Positions 9,704-32,421 of a DNA stretch of 43,556 bases are shown piece by piece. This DNA comes from Sphingomonas bacterium (lineage in GTDB: Bacteria > Pseudomonadota > Alphaproteobacteria > Sphingomonadales > Sphingomonadaceae), in contig NZ_CAHJXD010000178.1 of the NCBI RefSeq assembly GCF_903644055.1, forward strand, positions 1 through 43,556. The letters run 5' to 3'. The first letter of the stretch is position 1. The number at the start of each line of letters is the position of its first letter. The notes beneath the pieces were generated by a model, which saw nothing but the letters and a program-made list of their open reading frames with translations, had not been told where the DNA came from and ran no database searches. The position numbers were made by a program, and so were the translations under genes.

Positions 9704-11490
9704 TGCCCGCCGCCTACCAAATCATCGATCATGTCTATGACGCGGTGGTCGTCGGCGCGGGCGGATCGGGGCTGCGCGCGACGATGGGGTGCGCGGAGAA
9801 AGGCCTCAAGACCGCCTGCATCACCAAGGTCTTCCCGACGCGCAGCCATACCGTCGCGGCGCAGGGCGGTATCGCCGCGAGCCTCGGCAACAACACGCCC
9901 GATCACTGGACGTGGCACATGTACGACACCGTCAAGGGATCGGACTGGCTGGGCGACCAGGACGCGATCGAATATATGGTGCGCGAGGCGCCGGCGGCGG
10001 TGATCGAGCTCGAGCATGCCGGCGTGCCGTTCAGCCGCAACGAGAGCGGGACGATCTATCAGCGTCCGTTCGGCGGCCACATGCAGAATATGGGCGCCGG
10101 CCCCCCCGTGCAGCGCACCTGCGCCGCCGCCGATCGCACCGGCCACGCGATGCTGCACGCGCTCTACCAGCAGAGCCTGAAGTATGACGCCGATTTCTTC
10201 GTCGAATATTTCGCGCTCGACCTGATCATGGAGGACGGCGTCTGCAAGGGCGTAATCGCGCTGTGCATGGAGGATGGATCGCTCCATCGCTTTCGTGCCC
10301 ACGCGGTCGTGCTGGCGACGGGCGGATCGGGGCGCACTTATTATTCGGCGACCTCGGCGCACACCTGCACGGGCGACGGCGGCGGCATGGTGCTGCGCGC
10401 AGGGCTGCCTTTGCAGGACATGGAGTTCGTCCAGTTCCACCCCACCGGCATCTACGGCGCCGGCGTGCTGATCACCGAGGGCGCGCGGGGCGAGGGGGGC
10501 TACCTCACCAACAGCGAGGGCGAGCGCTTCATGGAGCGCTATGCGCCTTCGGCCAAAGATCTGGCTTCGCGCGACGTCGTCTCACGCTCGATGGCGATGG
10601 AGATGCGCGAGGGGCGGGGCGTGGGCGAGCACAAGGACCATATCTTCCTGCACCTCGACCATATCGATCCCAAGGTGCTGGCCGAACGGCTGCCCGGCAT
10701 CACCGAGACGGGCAAGATCTTCGCGGGCGTCGATCTCACGCGCCAGCCGCTGCCGGTGACGCCGACGGTCCATTACAATATGGGCGGCGTGCCGTGCAAC
10801 TTCTACGGCGAGGTCGTGACGCTCAAGGACGGCAATCCCGACAGCGTGGTGCCAGGCCTGTTCGCGGTGGGCGAGGCGGCGTGCGTTTCGGTGCATGGTG
10901 CGAACCGACTGGGCTCCAATTCGCTGATCGATCTGGTGGTGTTCGGCCGCGCGACGGGCTTCCGCATCGCCGAGCTCGTTCAGCCCAACAGCAAGCATGG
11001 CAAGATCAACGTCGAGGCCGACGACAAGGCGATCGGCCGCCTCGATCATTTCCGCAACGCGCGCGGCGCGACGCCGACCGCCAGGATCCGCCTCGATATG
11101 CAGCGCACGATGCAGAAGCATTGCGCGGTGTTCCGCGATACCGAACTGCTGCGCGAGGGGCTCGGCCTGATCGATACCGTCGCCGCCACGCTACAGGATG
11201 TCGGTATCCAAGATCGCTCGCTGATCTGGAACACCGATCTCGTCGAGACGCTCGAGCTCGATAACATGCTCCCGCAGGCGGTCGTCACGATGCATGGCGC
11301 GGCCAATCGCCACGAGAGCCGCGGCGCGCATATGCACGAGGATCATCCCGACCGCGACGACGCCAACTGGATGAAGCACACCATCTCTTGGTATGAGAAG
11401 GGCCGCGTGACGCTCGATTACCGCCCGGTGCACGAATATACGCTCACCGACGAGATCGACTATATCAAGCCCAAGGCGCGCGTTTACTGA
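9703..11490 (+). CDS. sdhA: Succinate dehydrogenase flavoprotein subunit
   Basis: SdhA oxidises succinate to fumarate in the TCA cycle using covalently bound FAD (595 residues, full length). The dinucleotide fold is [15 protein letters not shown]. The flavin-linking His is in [15 protein letters not shown] (His49). [20 protein letters not shown] and [19 protein letters not shown] are present, as is the terminal [20 protein letters not shown]. The ATG at 9703 overlaps the sdhD stop by one base and gives the expected N-terminus; the frame stays open upstream but that part is antisense-like. The iron-sulfur subunit gene sdhB, which usually follows, is not here: the next gene is unrelated and begins 225 bases later. 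Confidence 0.98.
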
Positions 11491-11552
11491 CGATCCGGGA
11501 CTAGGTCGCAGGCGAGATCTCTCCATCGGAAAAAGTATAGCTTGATAGGTTA

Positions 11553-11574
11553 GCGCCATCCGTCTGAATGGCGC
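11553..11574 (+). repeat. Inverted repeat downstream of sdhA
   Basis: GCGCCAT (11553-11559) and ATGGCGC (11568-11574) form a perfect 7-bp stem with an 8-base loop, 62 bases after the sdhA stop. No T-run follows, so it is not a classical intrinsic terminator. It may instead stabilise or process the 3' end of the sdhCDA message. The rest of 11491-11642 shows no gene and no sdhB remnant. Confidence 0.45.
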
Positions 11575-11642
11575 AAAATGACTTGTTTGAGGGAGTTCAT
11601 CTGACTCGCCGCCCCGAAATTGCTGCTTCCAGTAATCGTTAC

Positions 11643-11667
11643 GGAACCGTGCGCTGCGGGAGCGGTT
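11643..11667 (+). promoter_or_regulatory. Putative EcfG-type stress promoter
   Basis: GGAAC (11643-11647), exactly 16 bases, then GGTT (11664-11667). The alphaproteobacterial general-stress sigma factor EcfG recognises GGAAC-N16/17-CGTT, so this differs by one base. Transcription would begin near 11674, leaving a leader of about 42 bases before the ATG at 11716. The same pattern with the same spacing is found upstream of the diiron-type gene at 31522. Confidence 0.5.
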
Positions 11668-11674
11668 GAGAGGC

Positions 11675-11702
11675 CTAACCGTCCGCATCTAACCGCCCGC
11701 AT
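11675..11702 (+). repeat. Tandem 14-base direct repeat in the leader
   Basis: CTAACCGTCCGCAT (11675-11688) is followed directly by CTAACCGCCCGCAT (11689-11702), with one mismatch. The pair ends two bases before the AGGAG ribosome-binding site of the next gene, so it lies in the predicted 5' leader. It could be a chance duplication or a binding site for a regulator; nothing more can be seen. Confidence 0.5.
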
Positions 11703-11715
11703 CAGGAGATATTCG

Positions 11716-12198
11716 ATGGCCGACACCCCGTCCGACGGCGCCCCCGAGAGCGGCACGAGCACGCCCCCCCCACGCCGTCGTCGCGCACGCGGGGATAGCG
11801 GTACGAGCGCCAAGCCGAAGCGTTCGCCCGCCGCCAAGACGACGCGATCCTCACCGACGCGTCGATCGTCGGCGGTTACGGAAGCGGTCGCCGCGCCCAA
11901 GAAGACCGCGCGAAGGGCCGCGACCGCCGCCAAATCTACAGCGACGAAAGTCGTTCGGCAGGCAAGGCCCAAGGTCAAGGCCGCTGCCGACAAGATCGTG
12001 AAGACCGAACAAGCGGTGGTGAAGAGCCGCCTCGGCAAGGGCATGATCATCGGCGGCGCGATCGCCGCGCTGACCGCCGGCATAGCCGCCAAGTTCGGGC
12101 GCAAGAAGATTTCGCAGGCCACCACCAATGCGATGGACAAGGTAATGGGCAAGCCCGAGCCCGCCGAGCCCACCCCGCCTAAGATGTCCGCCGACTGA
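11716..12198 (+). CDS. Basic Ala/Lys/Arg-rich protein, function unknown
   Basis: I do not recognise a named family. The 160-residue product has a low-complexity, very basic first half (TPPPRRRRARGDSGT, KKTARRAATAAKSTATK) that resembles the disordered tails of histone H1-like and other nucleic-acid-binding proteins. The middle holds a glycine/alanine helix (GMIIGGAIAALTAGIAAKFG, about residues 112-131), long enough to span or dip into a membrane. The tail is Pro-rich. It could be a nucleoid-associated protein or a small membrane-anchored basic protein. The start is fixed by AGGAG seven bases upstream of the ATG. An EcfG-like promoter and a tandem repeat precede it. It converges on the transporter gene with a 17-base gap. 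Confidence 0.75.
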   Translation: MADTPSDGAPESGTSTPPPRRRRARGDSGTSAKPKRSPAAKTTRSSPTRRSSAVTEAVAAPKKTARRAATAAKSTATKVVRQARPKVKAAADKIVKTEQAVVKSRLGKGMIIGGAIAALTAGIAAKFGRKKISQATTNAMDKVMGKPEPAEPTPPKMSAD

Positions 12199-13610: not shown

Positions 13611-14144
13611 ATGATATCGCCCGTCATCGAAACCGGGCGGCTGCGGTTGAGACTGCATCGACCCGACGATCTCGACCGGCGCAGCGCGATCCGGATGCAG
13701 CCCGAAACGATGCGCCACATCGGCGGCGCCGCGGCCAGCCTGCCCCAGGCGCGCGAGGAAAGCTGGGCGCGAATTCAGCGCTATGTCGGCCATTGGGCGC
13801 TGTTCGGATGGGGGCTATTCGCGATCGAGGAGCGCGCAACCGGCCTGTTGATCGGCGAGGCGGGGATCGCCGATTTCCATCGCGGCCTGCGCCCCGATTT
13901 CGACGCGACGCCGGAGGGCGCCTGGCTGTTGGCGGCCGAAGCCGGCGGCAAGGGCTATGCGACCGAGGCGATGCAGGCGGCGATCGACTGGTTCGATCGC
14001 AACAGGGGACGCGAAAGAATCGTTTGCGTGATCGATGGACAGAATCTCGCCTCGATCCGCGTCGCCTACAAGCTCGGCTTCGGGCGCTATGACGAAATCG
14101 ACTATCATGGCCAGCCAAAGCTGTTGTTCGAACGCCCGGCATGA
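13611..14144 (+). CDS. GNAT-family N-acetyltransferase (RimJ/RimL type)
   Basis: This is an acetyl-CoA-dependent N-acetyltransferase of 177 residues. It opens with the ETGRLRLRLHRPDDLD stretch typical of the RimJ/RimL-like group. The acetyl-CoA-binding region reads WLLAAEAGGKGYATEAMQA, and the last motif is NLASIRVAYKLGFGRYDE. The substrate cannot be told. It starts 90 bases from the divergent MFS gene, so the two share a promoter region. pgsA follows after 42 bases. Confidence 0.88.
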   Translation: MISPVIETGRLRLRLHRPDDLDRRSAIRMQPETMRHIGGAAASLPQAREESWARIQRYVGHWALFGWGLFAIEERATGLLIGEAGIADFHRGLRPDFDATPEGAWLLAAEAGGKGYATEAMQAAIDWFDRNRGRERIVCVIDGQNLASIRVAYKLGFGRYDEIDYHGQPKLLFERPA

Positions 14145-14186: not shown

Positions 14187-14735
14187 ATGCTGACGCTGCC
14201 GAACATCCTCACGCTCTCCCGCATCTTCGCGATGCCGGTGCTGGTGGCGTTGCTCTGGCATCCCAAGCCCGCCGATTTCGCGATCGCCTGCGCGCTCTAC
14301 GCGCTGGTGGCAATCACCGATTATTTCGACGGTTACCTGGCGCGCGCGCAGGGCGCGGTTTCCCGGCTCGGCATCTTCCTCGATCCGATCGCCGACAAGA
14401 TCATGGTCGCGACGGTAATCGTCATGCTGCTGTACACGCGCGTGATCGATGGCCTGCCGGTGATCGCCGCGCTGGTGATCCTGCTGCGCGAGATCGCCGT
14501 TTCGGGGCTGCGCGAGTTTCTCGCCGAACTGCGTGTGTCGATGCCGGTCAGCCAGCTCGCCAAGTGGAAGACGACGTTCCAGCTTCTCGCGCTGGGGCTG
14601 CTGATCGCGGCGGGCGCTCTGCCCGAAACGCCGGTGATCGGCTGGGCCGGATTGTTCTGCCTGTGGATGGCGGCGGGGCTCACGCTGATTACCGGATGGG
14701 ATTATCTGCGCGTCGGCCTCAAGCATATGGATTGA
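14187..14735 (+). CDS. pgsA: CDP-diacylglycerol--glycerol-3-phosphate 3-phosphatidyltransferase
   Basis: PgsA makes phosphatidylglycerol phosphate, the committed step to phosphatidylglycerol and cardiolipin, in the inner membrane. The N-terminus MLTLPNILTLSRIFAMPV is typical. The CDP-alcohol phosphotransferase motif is complete across residues 48-71: DGYLARA, then G, then FLDPIADK with all Asp residues. Several hydrophobic helices follow in 182 residues. AGGGG precedes the ATG. moaD begins four bases after its stop, so pgsA, moaD and moaE look like one transcript. Confidence 0.96.
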   Translation: MLTLPNILTLSRIFAMPVLVALLWHPKPADFAIACALYALVAITDYFDGYLARAQGAVSRLGIFLDPIADKIMVATVIVMLLYTRVIDGLPVIAALVILLREIAVSGLREFLAELRVSMPVSQLAKWKTTFQLLALGLLIAAGALPETPVIGWAGLFCLWMAAGLTLITGWDYLRVGLKHMD

Positions 14736-30943: not shown

Positions 30944-31372
30944 ATGGCAATGGCAGCAGCCACCGCTGAAGGCGAGCCGATGATGGACATCAACACGACG
31001 CCGTTGATCGACGTCATGCTGGTGCTCCTGATCATGTTCATCATCACCATCCCCGTGCAGACGCATGCGGTGAAGCTCGACCTTCCGCAAAATACCAACG
31101 CCCCGCCGCCGCCGATCCTGCCCACCAAGAATCGCGTATCGATCGATCCCGCGGGGACGATCGCGTGGAACGGCGCGCCGATCAATCTTACGATCCTGCG
31201 CCAGTATCTCGACCAGACGCAGCAGATGGATCCGATCCCCGAGCTGCACGTCGAGCCCGATCCGCAGGCACGCTACGAGATCGTCGACGAGGTGCTCGCG
31301 GTCACCAAGCGCGCCAACGTTTCGAAGATGGGCTTCGTGGGCAACGAGAAATACGCCGACTACGCCGGTTGA
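30944..31372 (+). CDS. exbD: ExbD-family biopolymer transporter (second copy)
   Basis: This second ExbD has 142 residues. It has the same membrane segment (DINTTPLIDVMLVLLIMFII, proton-binding Asp in LIDVM) but a shorter periplasmic domain without cysteines (LHVEPDPQARYEIVDEVLAV). Tandem exbD genes behind exbB are known in xanthomonads and common in sphingomonads; the second copy can serve particular receptors. GGAG precedes the ATG at ten bases. A strong intrinsic terminator lies 19 bases after its stop and ends the operon. Confidence 0.93.
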   Translation: MAMAAATAEGEPMMDINTTPLIDVMLVLLIMFIITIPVQTHAVKLDLPQNTNAPPPPILPTKNRVSIDPAGTIAWNGAPINLTILRQYLDQTQQMDPIPELHVEPDPQARYEIVDEVLAVTKRANVSKMGFVGNEKYADYAG

Positions 31373-31391
31373 TCCGATAGCGCACGTCATG

Positions 31392-31427
31392 AAGAGGGTG
31401 ACCGGGAGAGCCGGTCGCCCTCTTTTT
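31392..31427 (+). terminator. Intrinsic terminator of the tonB-exbBDD operon
   Basis: GAGGGTGACCGG (31394-31405) and CCGGTCGCCCTC (31411-31422) form a 12-bp stem with one G-U pair and a five-base loop, followed by five T (31423-31427). Two A before the stem can pair with the first T, lengthening it. It separates the TonB operon from the diiron-type gene. Confidence 0.92.
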
Positions 31428-31464
31428 GCGTAACGGTTTCGCGTCCGGCTCCGCTGATCGCAAG

Positions 31465-31489
31465 GGAACGCCATCGTCCGCCGTGGGTT
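31465..31489 (+). promoter_or_regulatory. Putative EcfG-type stress promoter
   Basis: GGAAC (31465-31469), exactly 16 bases, then GGTT (31486-31489). This is the same sequence and spacing as at 11643-11667 and one base from the EcfG consensus. Transcription would start near 31496, giving a leader of about 26 bases to the ATG at 31522. It lies between the upstream terminator and the gene, as an independent promoter should. Confidence 0.55.
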
Positions 31490-31521
31490 TGGACGGTCTA
31501 GTTTCTTTGGAGATCAACCAC

Positions 31522-32421
31522 ATGGCGAGCCAGCCCGCGTACGGCGACCAATCGCCGCGACGCTCGCAATTTCTCACGTCCAGCTTTCAGCGCGGTCTGA
31601 CGCACTGGAATCATGAGCGCCTGGCACCCGGCTTCATATCTCCGGACTGGCAGAAGACGCTGGAGCGCGATACGCGCATGCTCCGTCTGGAAGGTGCCTT
31701 TCTAGAGGAGCTTCGCCAGGCGGTAGCTTTGGAAGCACGTTGCGTACCGAGCGATCCCGAGCGCTTCGTTTCCTGGTTCGAGAATCTCAAGCAGGAAGGG
31801 CCGGGGCAGGGCGATGCACTGTTCCCTTGGCTGGCAACGCAGGCGAGCGCAGCGGAGCTACGCTGGTTCTTTACGCAGGAGGCCGCGGGCGAGGCAGGGT
31901 TCGACGACCTCGTGGCGATGACTCAGGTCAAGCTGCCGCCCCGCGCCAAGCTGGAGCTGGCGCGTAACTATTGGGATGAGATGGGACGCGGCCATGCGGC
32001 TGGCATGCACGGCCCGATGCTCGACAGGCTGATCGAAACGCTTGGCGTCGAACCATCGATCGACTCGACCGTCTGGGAGAGTTTGGCGTTGGCCAATGCC
32101 ATGACGGCGATGGCGACGAGCAGGCGTTACGTGTGGCAGTCGGTCGGCGCATTGGGCGTGATCGAGCTGACCGCTCCGGGGCGTTCCGCCCAGGTAGCGG
32201 CTGGCTTGCGAAGGATCGGGCTCGGCGTCGAGGATAGCCGTTACTTCGATCTGCACGCCGTGATGGACGTCAAGCATAGCGAGGCCTGGAACCGTGAAGC
32301 GCTGATACCGCTGGTCGAGGAAGATCCGCGGCGGGCGGTCGCGATCGCCGAGGGTGCGCTGATCCGCCTGACGTGCGGCGCGCTTTGCTTCCAGCGTTAC
32401 CGCTCCGAGCTGTGGGGCTGA
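31522..32421 (+). CDS. Heme-oxygenase-like diiron protein (HDO superfamily)
   Basis: This all-helical protein of 299 residues belongs to the family often called iron-containing redox enzyme. A full set of likely metal ligands is visible: Glu120 or Glu124 in FFTQEAAGEAGFDDL, Glu153 and His163 in WDEMGRGHAAGMH (E-x9-H), Glu215 in GVIELTAPG, and His245, Asp249 and His252 in LHAVMDVKH (H-x3-D-x2-H). This is the pattern of HDO enzymes such as SznF, which use O2. The substrate is unknown. ATG 31522 is supported by TTGGAG nine bases upstream; the frame stays open into the terminator before it. It has its own EcfG-like promoter, and its 3' end overlaps a convergent MFS gene by 25 bases. Confidence 0.83.
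   Translation: MASQPAYGDQSPRRSQFLTSSFQRGLTHWNHERLAPGFISPDWQKTLERDTRMLRLEGAFLEELRQAVALEARCVPSDPERFVSWFENLKQEGPGQGDALFPWLATQASAAELRWFFTQEAAGEAGFDDLVAMTQVKLPPRAKLELARNYWDEMGRGHAAGMHGPMLDRLIETLGVEPSIDSTVWESLALANAMTAMATSRRYVWQSVGALGVIELTAPGRSAQVAAGLRRIGLGVEDSRYFDLHAVMDVKHSEAWNREALIPLVEEDPRRAVAIAEGALIRLTCGALCFQRYRSELWG

Follow-up and report, generated by a model that had tools for sequence, protein, structure and literature searches.

What reads the short element that stands before two unlinked genes of a Sphingomonas bacterium, and what kind of protein does it bring under control? The window, meaning the whole stretch of DNA analysed, spans 43,556 nt (assembly GCF_903644055.1, contig NZ_CAHJXD010000178.1). 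A preliminary description noted two GGAAC-N16-GGTT sites in it, and proposed that the genes behind them are under general stress (EcfG) control. Their products are a predicted heme-oxygenase-like diiron oxygenase (HDO) and a small basic protein. The features concerned are as follows.

31465 to 31489, plus strand: predicted EcfG-type promoter of the HDO gene, an exact match to GGAAC-N16-GGTT; 64 of 80 homologs (the best 80 of 434) carry the element upstream
31465 to 31469 and 31486 to 31489, plus strand: −35 box GGAAC and −10 box GGTT of the HDO-gene promoter, with a 16-nt spacer
31522 to 32421, plus strand: HDO gene, encoding a 299-residue heme-oxygenase-like diiron oxygenase (PF14518; Pfam 150 bits)
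11643 to 11667, plus strand: predicted EcfG-type promoter of the basic-protein gene, also an exact match; the same element is present in the related loci L119 and L120
11643 to 11647 and 11664 to 11667, plus strand: −35 box GGAAC and −10 box GGTT of the basic-gene promoter, with a 16-nt spacer
11716 to 12198, plus strand: basic-protein gene, 160 residues, pI 11.5; changes relative to L119 are biased to third codon positions
About 31391 to 31430, plus strand: terminator-like hairpin (fold −32.5 kcal/mol, z −7.3)

Both sites match exactly on the coding strand, as first described, and they are the only GGAAC-N16-GGTT sites on either strand of the window; GGAAC-N17-[CG]GTT has no match there. Between GTT and ATG lie 32 nt at the HDO gene (ATG 31522) and 48 nt at the basic-protein gene (ATG 11716). 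A simple scan for sigma-70 promoters gave no match in 31360-31560 or 11480-11740. The strong hairpin closes the TonB-ExbB-ExbD-ExbD genes just upstream of the HDO promoter, and therefore the diiron gene probably needs a promoter of its own. (This hairpin was not among the output of a simple terminator scan.) A relaxed scan of the window gave one extra site, GCAAC-N17-CGTT at 13999-14024, which was set aside as lying inside an unbroken reading frame. That frame reads acetyltransferase-like by eye, and ends shortly before a CDP-alcohol phosphatidyltransferase gene at 14187.

The reading favoured here, with a probability of roughly 90%, is that both elements are alphaproteobacterial general stress promoters read by EcfG, one before the HDO gene and the other before the basic-protein gene. 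From the sequence, we infer EcfG dependence in this organism, the transcript starts, and the biochemical roles of the two proteins. The pathway itself (kinase, PhyR, NepR, and EcfG) is known from the literature (PMC7083833). Under stress, a HisKA_2 kinase would phosphorylate PhyR, which would take NepR away from EcfG; RNA polymerase carrying EcfG would then start a few bases downstream of each GGTT. The HDO, whose structural neighbourhood is that of the N-oxygenases HrmI, RohS, and SznF, would most likely activate O2 at a diiron centre, and may act as a stress-protective enzyme, by analogy with DtpC in the drying tolerance of Acinetobacter. The basic protein, with its membrane-type helix, is probably a short form of a module that carries a hemerythrin domain in other sphingomonads, where the same promoter type would serve it in about half of cases. 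A possible role is the binding of nucleic acid, or of another anion, close to the membrane.

Does the organism possess this pathway? One contig of its genome, C119, encodes candidates for four of its parts: NepR, over the Pfam cut-off; PhyR, with sigma2 and sigma-like domains plus a receiver (NCBIfam 371 bits against a cut-off of 240); an ECF sigma factor that matches the PhyR-type sigma2 domain; and a kinase of the HisKA_2/HWE type. The sigma factor reached no EcfG-specific NCBIfam cut-off among the matches listed, only that of the general ECF model. It is best called EcfG-like, an identity that rests on its locus and on the PhyR_sigma2 match. Upstream of its gene (C119:444-1073, minus strand) lies GGAAC-N16-CGTT at C119:1339-1363(-), with a 51-residue open reading frame between the site and the gene. 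By eye, the end of a frame beside the EcfG-like gene (L011, 3-428, plus strand; AGIAAALRSSYEALPMEDQFARLLARIK) looks like the tail of another NepR; the single NepR found by the genome-wide Pfam search is not this frame.

Chance is the first alternative to weigh, namely that the two sites are fortuitous matches with no function. Per window, 0.10 copies of the exact nine-base pattern are expected, and two or more arose in 1 of 100 shuffles; when any base is allowed at the start of the −10 box, the figures are 0.37 and 4 of 100. By these figures the pair in the window is only mildly improbable, and the case against chance rests instead on placement across the genome and on conservation in homologs. 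Raw genome counts, too, leave room for chance. The organism's own genome (a 2.41-Mb assembly in 297 contigs, 92% complete) has 25 N16 sites against 34 for the reversed pattern, and 11 N17 sites against 20, so that neither count is raised.

The genome-wide test for enrichment suggested in the preliminary description thus fails on totals, which fall below the control, but succeeds on placement. By an automatic rule, 20 of 36 GGAAC-N16/17-[CG]GTT sites lie 0-100 nt before a gene on the same strand. The corresponding figures are 0 of 30 for the reversed pattern (30 of its 34 existing sites) and 1 of 30 for the wrong spacing, GGAAC-N13-[CG]GTT (30 of 31 existing sites), giving Fisher p values of 2e-7 and 3e-6, respectively. 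Genes were called with a simple codon-usage caller, trained on the window and 66 loci of the same genome. Eighteen of the 20 upstream sites are also outside any called gene, the remaining two (L003 and L020) overlapping one. Inspection places two more sites upstream of genes whose start the caller missed, L014 (the basic gene's own site) and L018, which would bring the total to 22; a further candidate, L031, has an ATG 28 nt after the site in a doubtful frame, and was left uncounted. Control matches fall mostly within genes (27 of 30 and 25 of 30 in the two control sets). Raw motif counting alone would have misled; placement carries the signal.

The genes behind these sites include those for Ku, a DUF1328 protein, a cupin, a DUF2171/OmpA protein, a protein of polyketide-cyclase fold, and a receiver domain, along with several small proteins of hydrophilic or membrane type. 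One further GGTT site precedes Ku. Two sites, L004 and L034, precede very hydrophilic low-complexity proteins of 75 and 82 residues, which have no Pfam match and look hydrophilin-like by eye.

Homologs of the diiron gene were chosen by protein similarity alone, as the best 80 of 434 stretches, nearly all of them titled sphingomonads. In 64 of these 80, the coding strand carries GGAAC-N16/17-NGTT no more than 150 nt before the start, whereas shuffles predict 0.3, the reversed pattern gives 0 of 80, and the other strand gives 1 of 80. (Background taken from the rest of the same loci is 0.28 per 80 upstream regions.) The 80 loci include a few near-copies or paralogs and so are not all independent: L054/L071 and L066/L069 have near-identical sites, and S. 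montanisoli contributes two loci, L050 and L052. Among the 64 from this best-80-of-434 set, the distance to the start is 21-39 nt in 61 and 8, 8, and 54 nt in the others; 38 have a 17-nt spacer and 26 a 16-nt one. Of the −10 boxes, 37 read GGTT, 21 CGTT, 3 AGTT, and 3 TGTT. The preliminary description had remarked that both window sites depart from CGTT at the same base. They do both read GGTT, but this is nothing odd, since GGTT is the commonest form at the HDO gene (37 of 64, again among the best 80 of 434).

The strict element was missed in 16 of the 80 homologs (best 80 of 434). One of these, L062, does have it, behind a mis-called start; eight have a GCAAC −35 or [CT]ATT −10 variant, as judged after the fact; and seven have no clear element. 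In a sample of 289 genomes from the class, eight match the HDO alignment at E 1e-30 or better, the window's own included, and at least three other genomes of the same family in that sample have no match, so the gene is not universal. Of four close homologs outside the family, three carry the element, each in a different gene arrangement, either ahead of the HDO gene or ahead of the apparent operon that contains it. In L160 it lies 32 nt before ATG 1432; an in-frame upstream ATG would put it within the coding region. In L158 an apparent methyltransferase-HDO operon has its first ATG 8 nt after the element, and in L159 a SET-domain-HDO operon begins 40 nt after it. The fourth, L157, has an operon that begins at the edge of the sequence compared. 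In three weaker homologs from the class (L161-L163), the gene is preceded by no element. In L159, the SET-domain gene itself (reverse complement, 973-1434) lies between the EcfG-type element and the HDO gene, an arrangement seen in this one genome.

For the HDO gene, then, the 64 of 80 homologs with the element (best 80 of 434) against 0.3 expected refute chance. Together with the placement relative to two controls, and with the retention of the element before the basic gene in two relatives, this makes chance matching extremely unlikely as an account of the two sites.

GGAAC −35 boxes are common to several ECF groups. A second alternative is that a different ECF sigma factor reads them here, such as an envelope-stress sigma of the RpoE type. 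The groups are told apart by the −10 box alone, and the first base of that box is relaxed at the HDO homologs, as the counts above show, which leaves this alternative some room. Published regulons argue the other way. In Sphingomonas melonis Fr1 (PMC6599016) and Sphingopyxis granuli TFA (PMC7083833), EcfG promoters share with the window sites the GGAAC −35 box, the spacing, the GTT core of an [N]GTT −10 box, and a position no more than 100 nt before the start. Both reports know GGTT as a natural variant: for S. melonis it appears among the sites of Table 1 (PMC6599016), and in S. granuli TFA it is among the most frequent non-consensus −10 boxes (PMC7083833). Ku is an EcfG target in both regulons (PMC6599016; PMC7083833), and the same class of element precedes Ku in the present genome and lies upstream of the phyR-linked sigma gene.

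One published transcript may bear on the HDO gene directly. Table 1 for S. melonis Fr1 lists #0787, a 'hypothetical protein', with GGAACGATAGCGGAAACAGGCGGTT 54 nt before its start and a log2 change of −3.2 in the ecfG mutant (PMC6599016). The HDO homolog of S. aquatilis, L098, has the #0787 site with one base changed, at the same 54-nt distance from a called GTG start, and no other genome in its genus sample of 201 has a site with at most one mismatch. Because of this near-identity, shared distance, and singularity, #0787 is presumed to be the ortholog of the window HDO gene, linked to it through promoter sequence. The fall of this presumed ortholog in the ecfG mutant joins the shared −10 core, spacing, and Ku target in making a different ECF sigma very unlikely. 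General stress control of both genes, as first proposed, thus gains support from the machinery, the placement, the conservation, and presumed ortholog #0787.

What, then, is the diiron protein? A profile of 42 sequences (the window HDO and 41 of the 80 homologs), run against the PDB, matched HrmI at E 3.5e-40; the next solved chain stood at 5.9e-6. An AlphaFold2 model (mean pLDDT 88) has the heme-oxygenase-like helical fold, and superposes on HrmI with Z 30 and an rmsd of 2.5 over 285 residues at 28% identity; Z is 25 for RohS and 21 for SznF. Six residues (E120, E153, H163, H245, D249, and H252) are invariant in 42 of 42 sequences and align with the HrmI ligands. Read from that alignment, they are the predicted metal ligands, three histidines and three carboxylates, which is the set of most HDOs (PMC13108848). 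By profile and predicted structure, the window gene encodes an HDO closest to the N-oxygenase HrmI.

HrmI (PDB 9n1a, 9n1x, 9nh9), a diiron L-lysine N-oxygenase, acts in hormaomycin biosynthesis. The likeness covers the fold over its whole length and ligands in matching positions. The chemistry of HrmI is oxidation of the lysine side chain to a nitro group (PMC13108848). Unlike HrmI, which makes nitro-lysine, the window gene has a stress-type promoter and no widely conserved neighbour, and 28% identity does not settle its substrate. Among the 77 loci compared (four of 81 having been dropped when the simple caller missed the centre gene), the largest neighbour cluster comprises 14, and the gene neighbourhood gives no general clue to function. 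PF14518 has one match in the organism's own genome; among 14 control genomes, it occurs in Caulobacter vibrioides and Sulfolobus acidocaldarius. In L158, an MTS-domain methyltransferase (464-1420) lies directly before the HDO; by eye, a methyltransferase-like frame precedes the HDO in L157 and a similar protein is nearby in six sphingomonad loci. Such a methyltransferase is a possible functional partner.

The nearest functional parallel, compared by description, is DtpC of Acinetobacter baumannii, an HDO-fold protein tied to stress. DtpC is a drying-tolerance factor; three among its predicted metal ligands are individually required for survival of drying, and it is co-transcribed with katE, in a gammaproteobacterium (PMC13232832, 2026). 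The window gene, in contrast, apparently stands alone behind its EcfG-type promoter, and it has ExbD and an MFS transporter as neighbours rather than a catalase.

The element is of a known kind, an EcfG-type promoter; less expected is an HDO as a stress-controlled target. HDOs have so far been characterised mainly as enzymes of small-molecule biosynthesis. A tentative proposal, with somewhat less than an even chance of being right, is that this HrmI-like HDO serves in stress, not in natural-product synthesis, and protects dormant or drying cells by O2 chemistry at its diiron centre. If so, it might consume O2 or peroxide, or N-oxygenate a small amine; together with DtpC of A. baumannii, it would mark a stress branch of the HDOs; and its partners in the regulon would include a basic helix-anchor module with or without hemerythrin, the latter a second type of diiron protein. 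The tie between HDO and stress is drawn from the element before 64 of 80 homologs (best 80 of 434), and apparently from a published transcriptome that lists the gene only as 'hypothetical'. HrmI-like HDOs occur in many sphingomonads, with the EcfG-type element kept also in other alphaproteobacterial families, and a role in stress survival is directly testable in culturable Sphingomonas. No publication was found that pairs the general stress response, EcfG, or PhyR with an HDO-type enzyme or with hemerythrin; subscription papers lay mostly outside the search, and absence from print is unproven.

The product of the basic-protein gene comprises a basic, low-complexity amino-terminal part rich in Ala, Lys, Arg, Pro, and Thr; one hydrophobic helix rich in Gly and Ala; and then GRKKI. 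It belongs to no Pfam or NCBIfam family. Compared with L119, whose protein is 62% identical, the gene differs at 45, 25, and 97 first, second, and third codon positions, the bias expected of a real gene. A single-sequence search of 298 genomes of the family gave matches in six, of which three are credible (the window, L119, and L120). GGAAC-N16-GGTT is kept in both credible relatives, with most of the spacer changed. One further feature emerges from the three upstream regions aligned.

11635 to 11649, plus strand: 15-bp block ATCGTTACGGAACCG, which extends into the −35 box; all three aligned upstream regions have it unchanged

The part of this block directly before the −35 box (11635-11642, ATCGTTAC) is identical in the window, L119, and L120, and DNA further upstream is little conserved. 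CGTTAC likewise precedes the GGAAC of L033.

A third alternative accepts the HDO site as an EcfG promoter and puts the basic-protein site outside the regulon. It can appeal to the rarity of the gene, with its three credible full-length members among 298 genomes, and to the extra conserved block at 11635-11642, which could belong to another regulator. Against it, the two boxes, their N16 spacing, and the GGTT form have all been retained in L119 and L120, where the spacer sequence is mostly changed. A wider comparison tells against it as well. A four-sequence profile found matches in 18 of the 298 genomes, the window, L119, and L120 among them. The strict element GGAAC-N16/17-NGTT, within 100 nt of the start, is present in nine of the other 15 genes, at 25-42 nt; the reversed pattern is found in 0 of 15. 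(One of the nine, L195, is the same place as L123, a member of the profile.) In L198, a GCAAC form lies 41 nt upstream of the start. L200, L201, L202, L204, and L208 have no element at the start used; in L208, one lies further up, before an unclear start. Exclusion of the basic-protein gene from the regulon is, on this evidence, very unlikely, and the reading of both sites as EcfG-type promoters is retained.

The wider set also suggests a relationship. Among L195-L209, all 13 long forms have a Pfam hemerythrin domain, and the two short forms, L199 and L206, have no Pfam hemerythrin match when scanned whole; nor do the window protein and L120 (scanned whole) or L119 (scanned from its third residue). 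The 13 hemerythrin-domain proteins share with the window protein a basic or low-complexity amino terminus, the Gly/Ala helix, and a basic motif such as GRK, whereas the window protein, L119, L120, L199, and L206 end after the helix. Profile similarity to the basic protein ranges from E 6e-4 to 6e-8 for 13 of the 15; L195, a sequence of the profile itself, is one of the remaining two. Because the similarity in the helix is weak and of low complexity, homology between the basic protein and the hemerythrin-domain proteins is likely, not proven. The strict element precedes seven of the 13 long forms and both short forms, and L195-L209 may possibly constitute an undescribed EcfG-controlled family.
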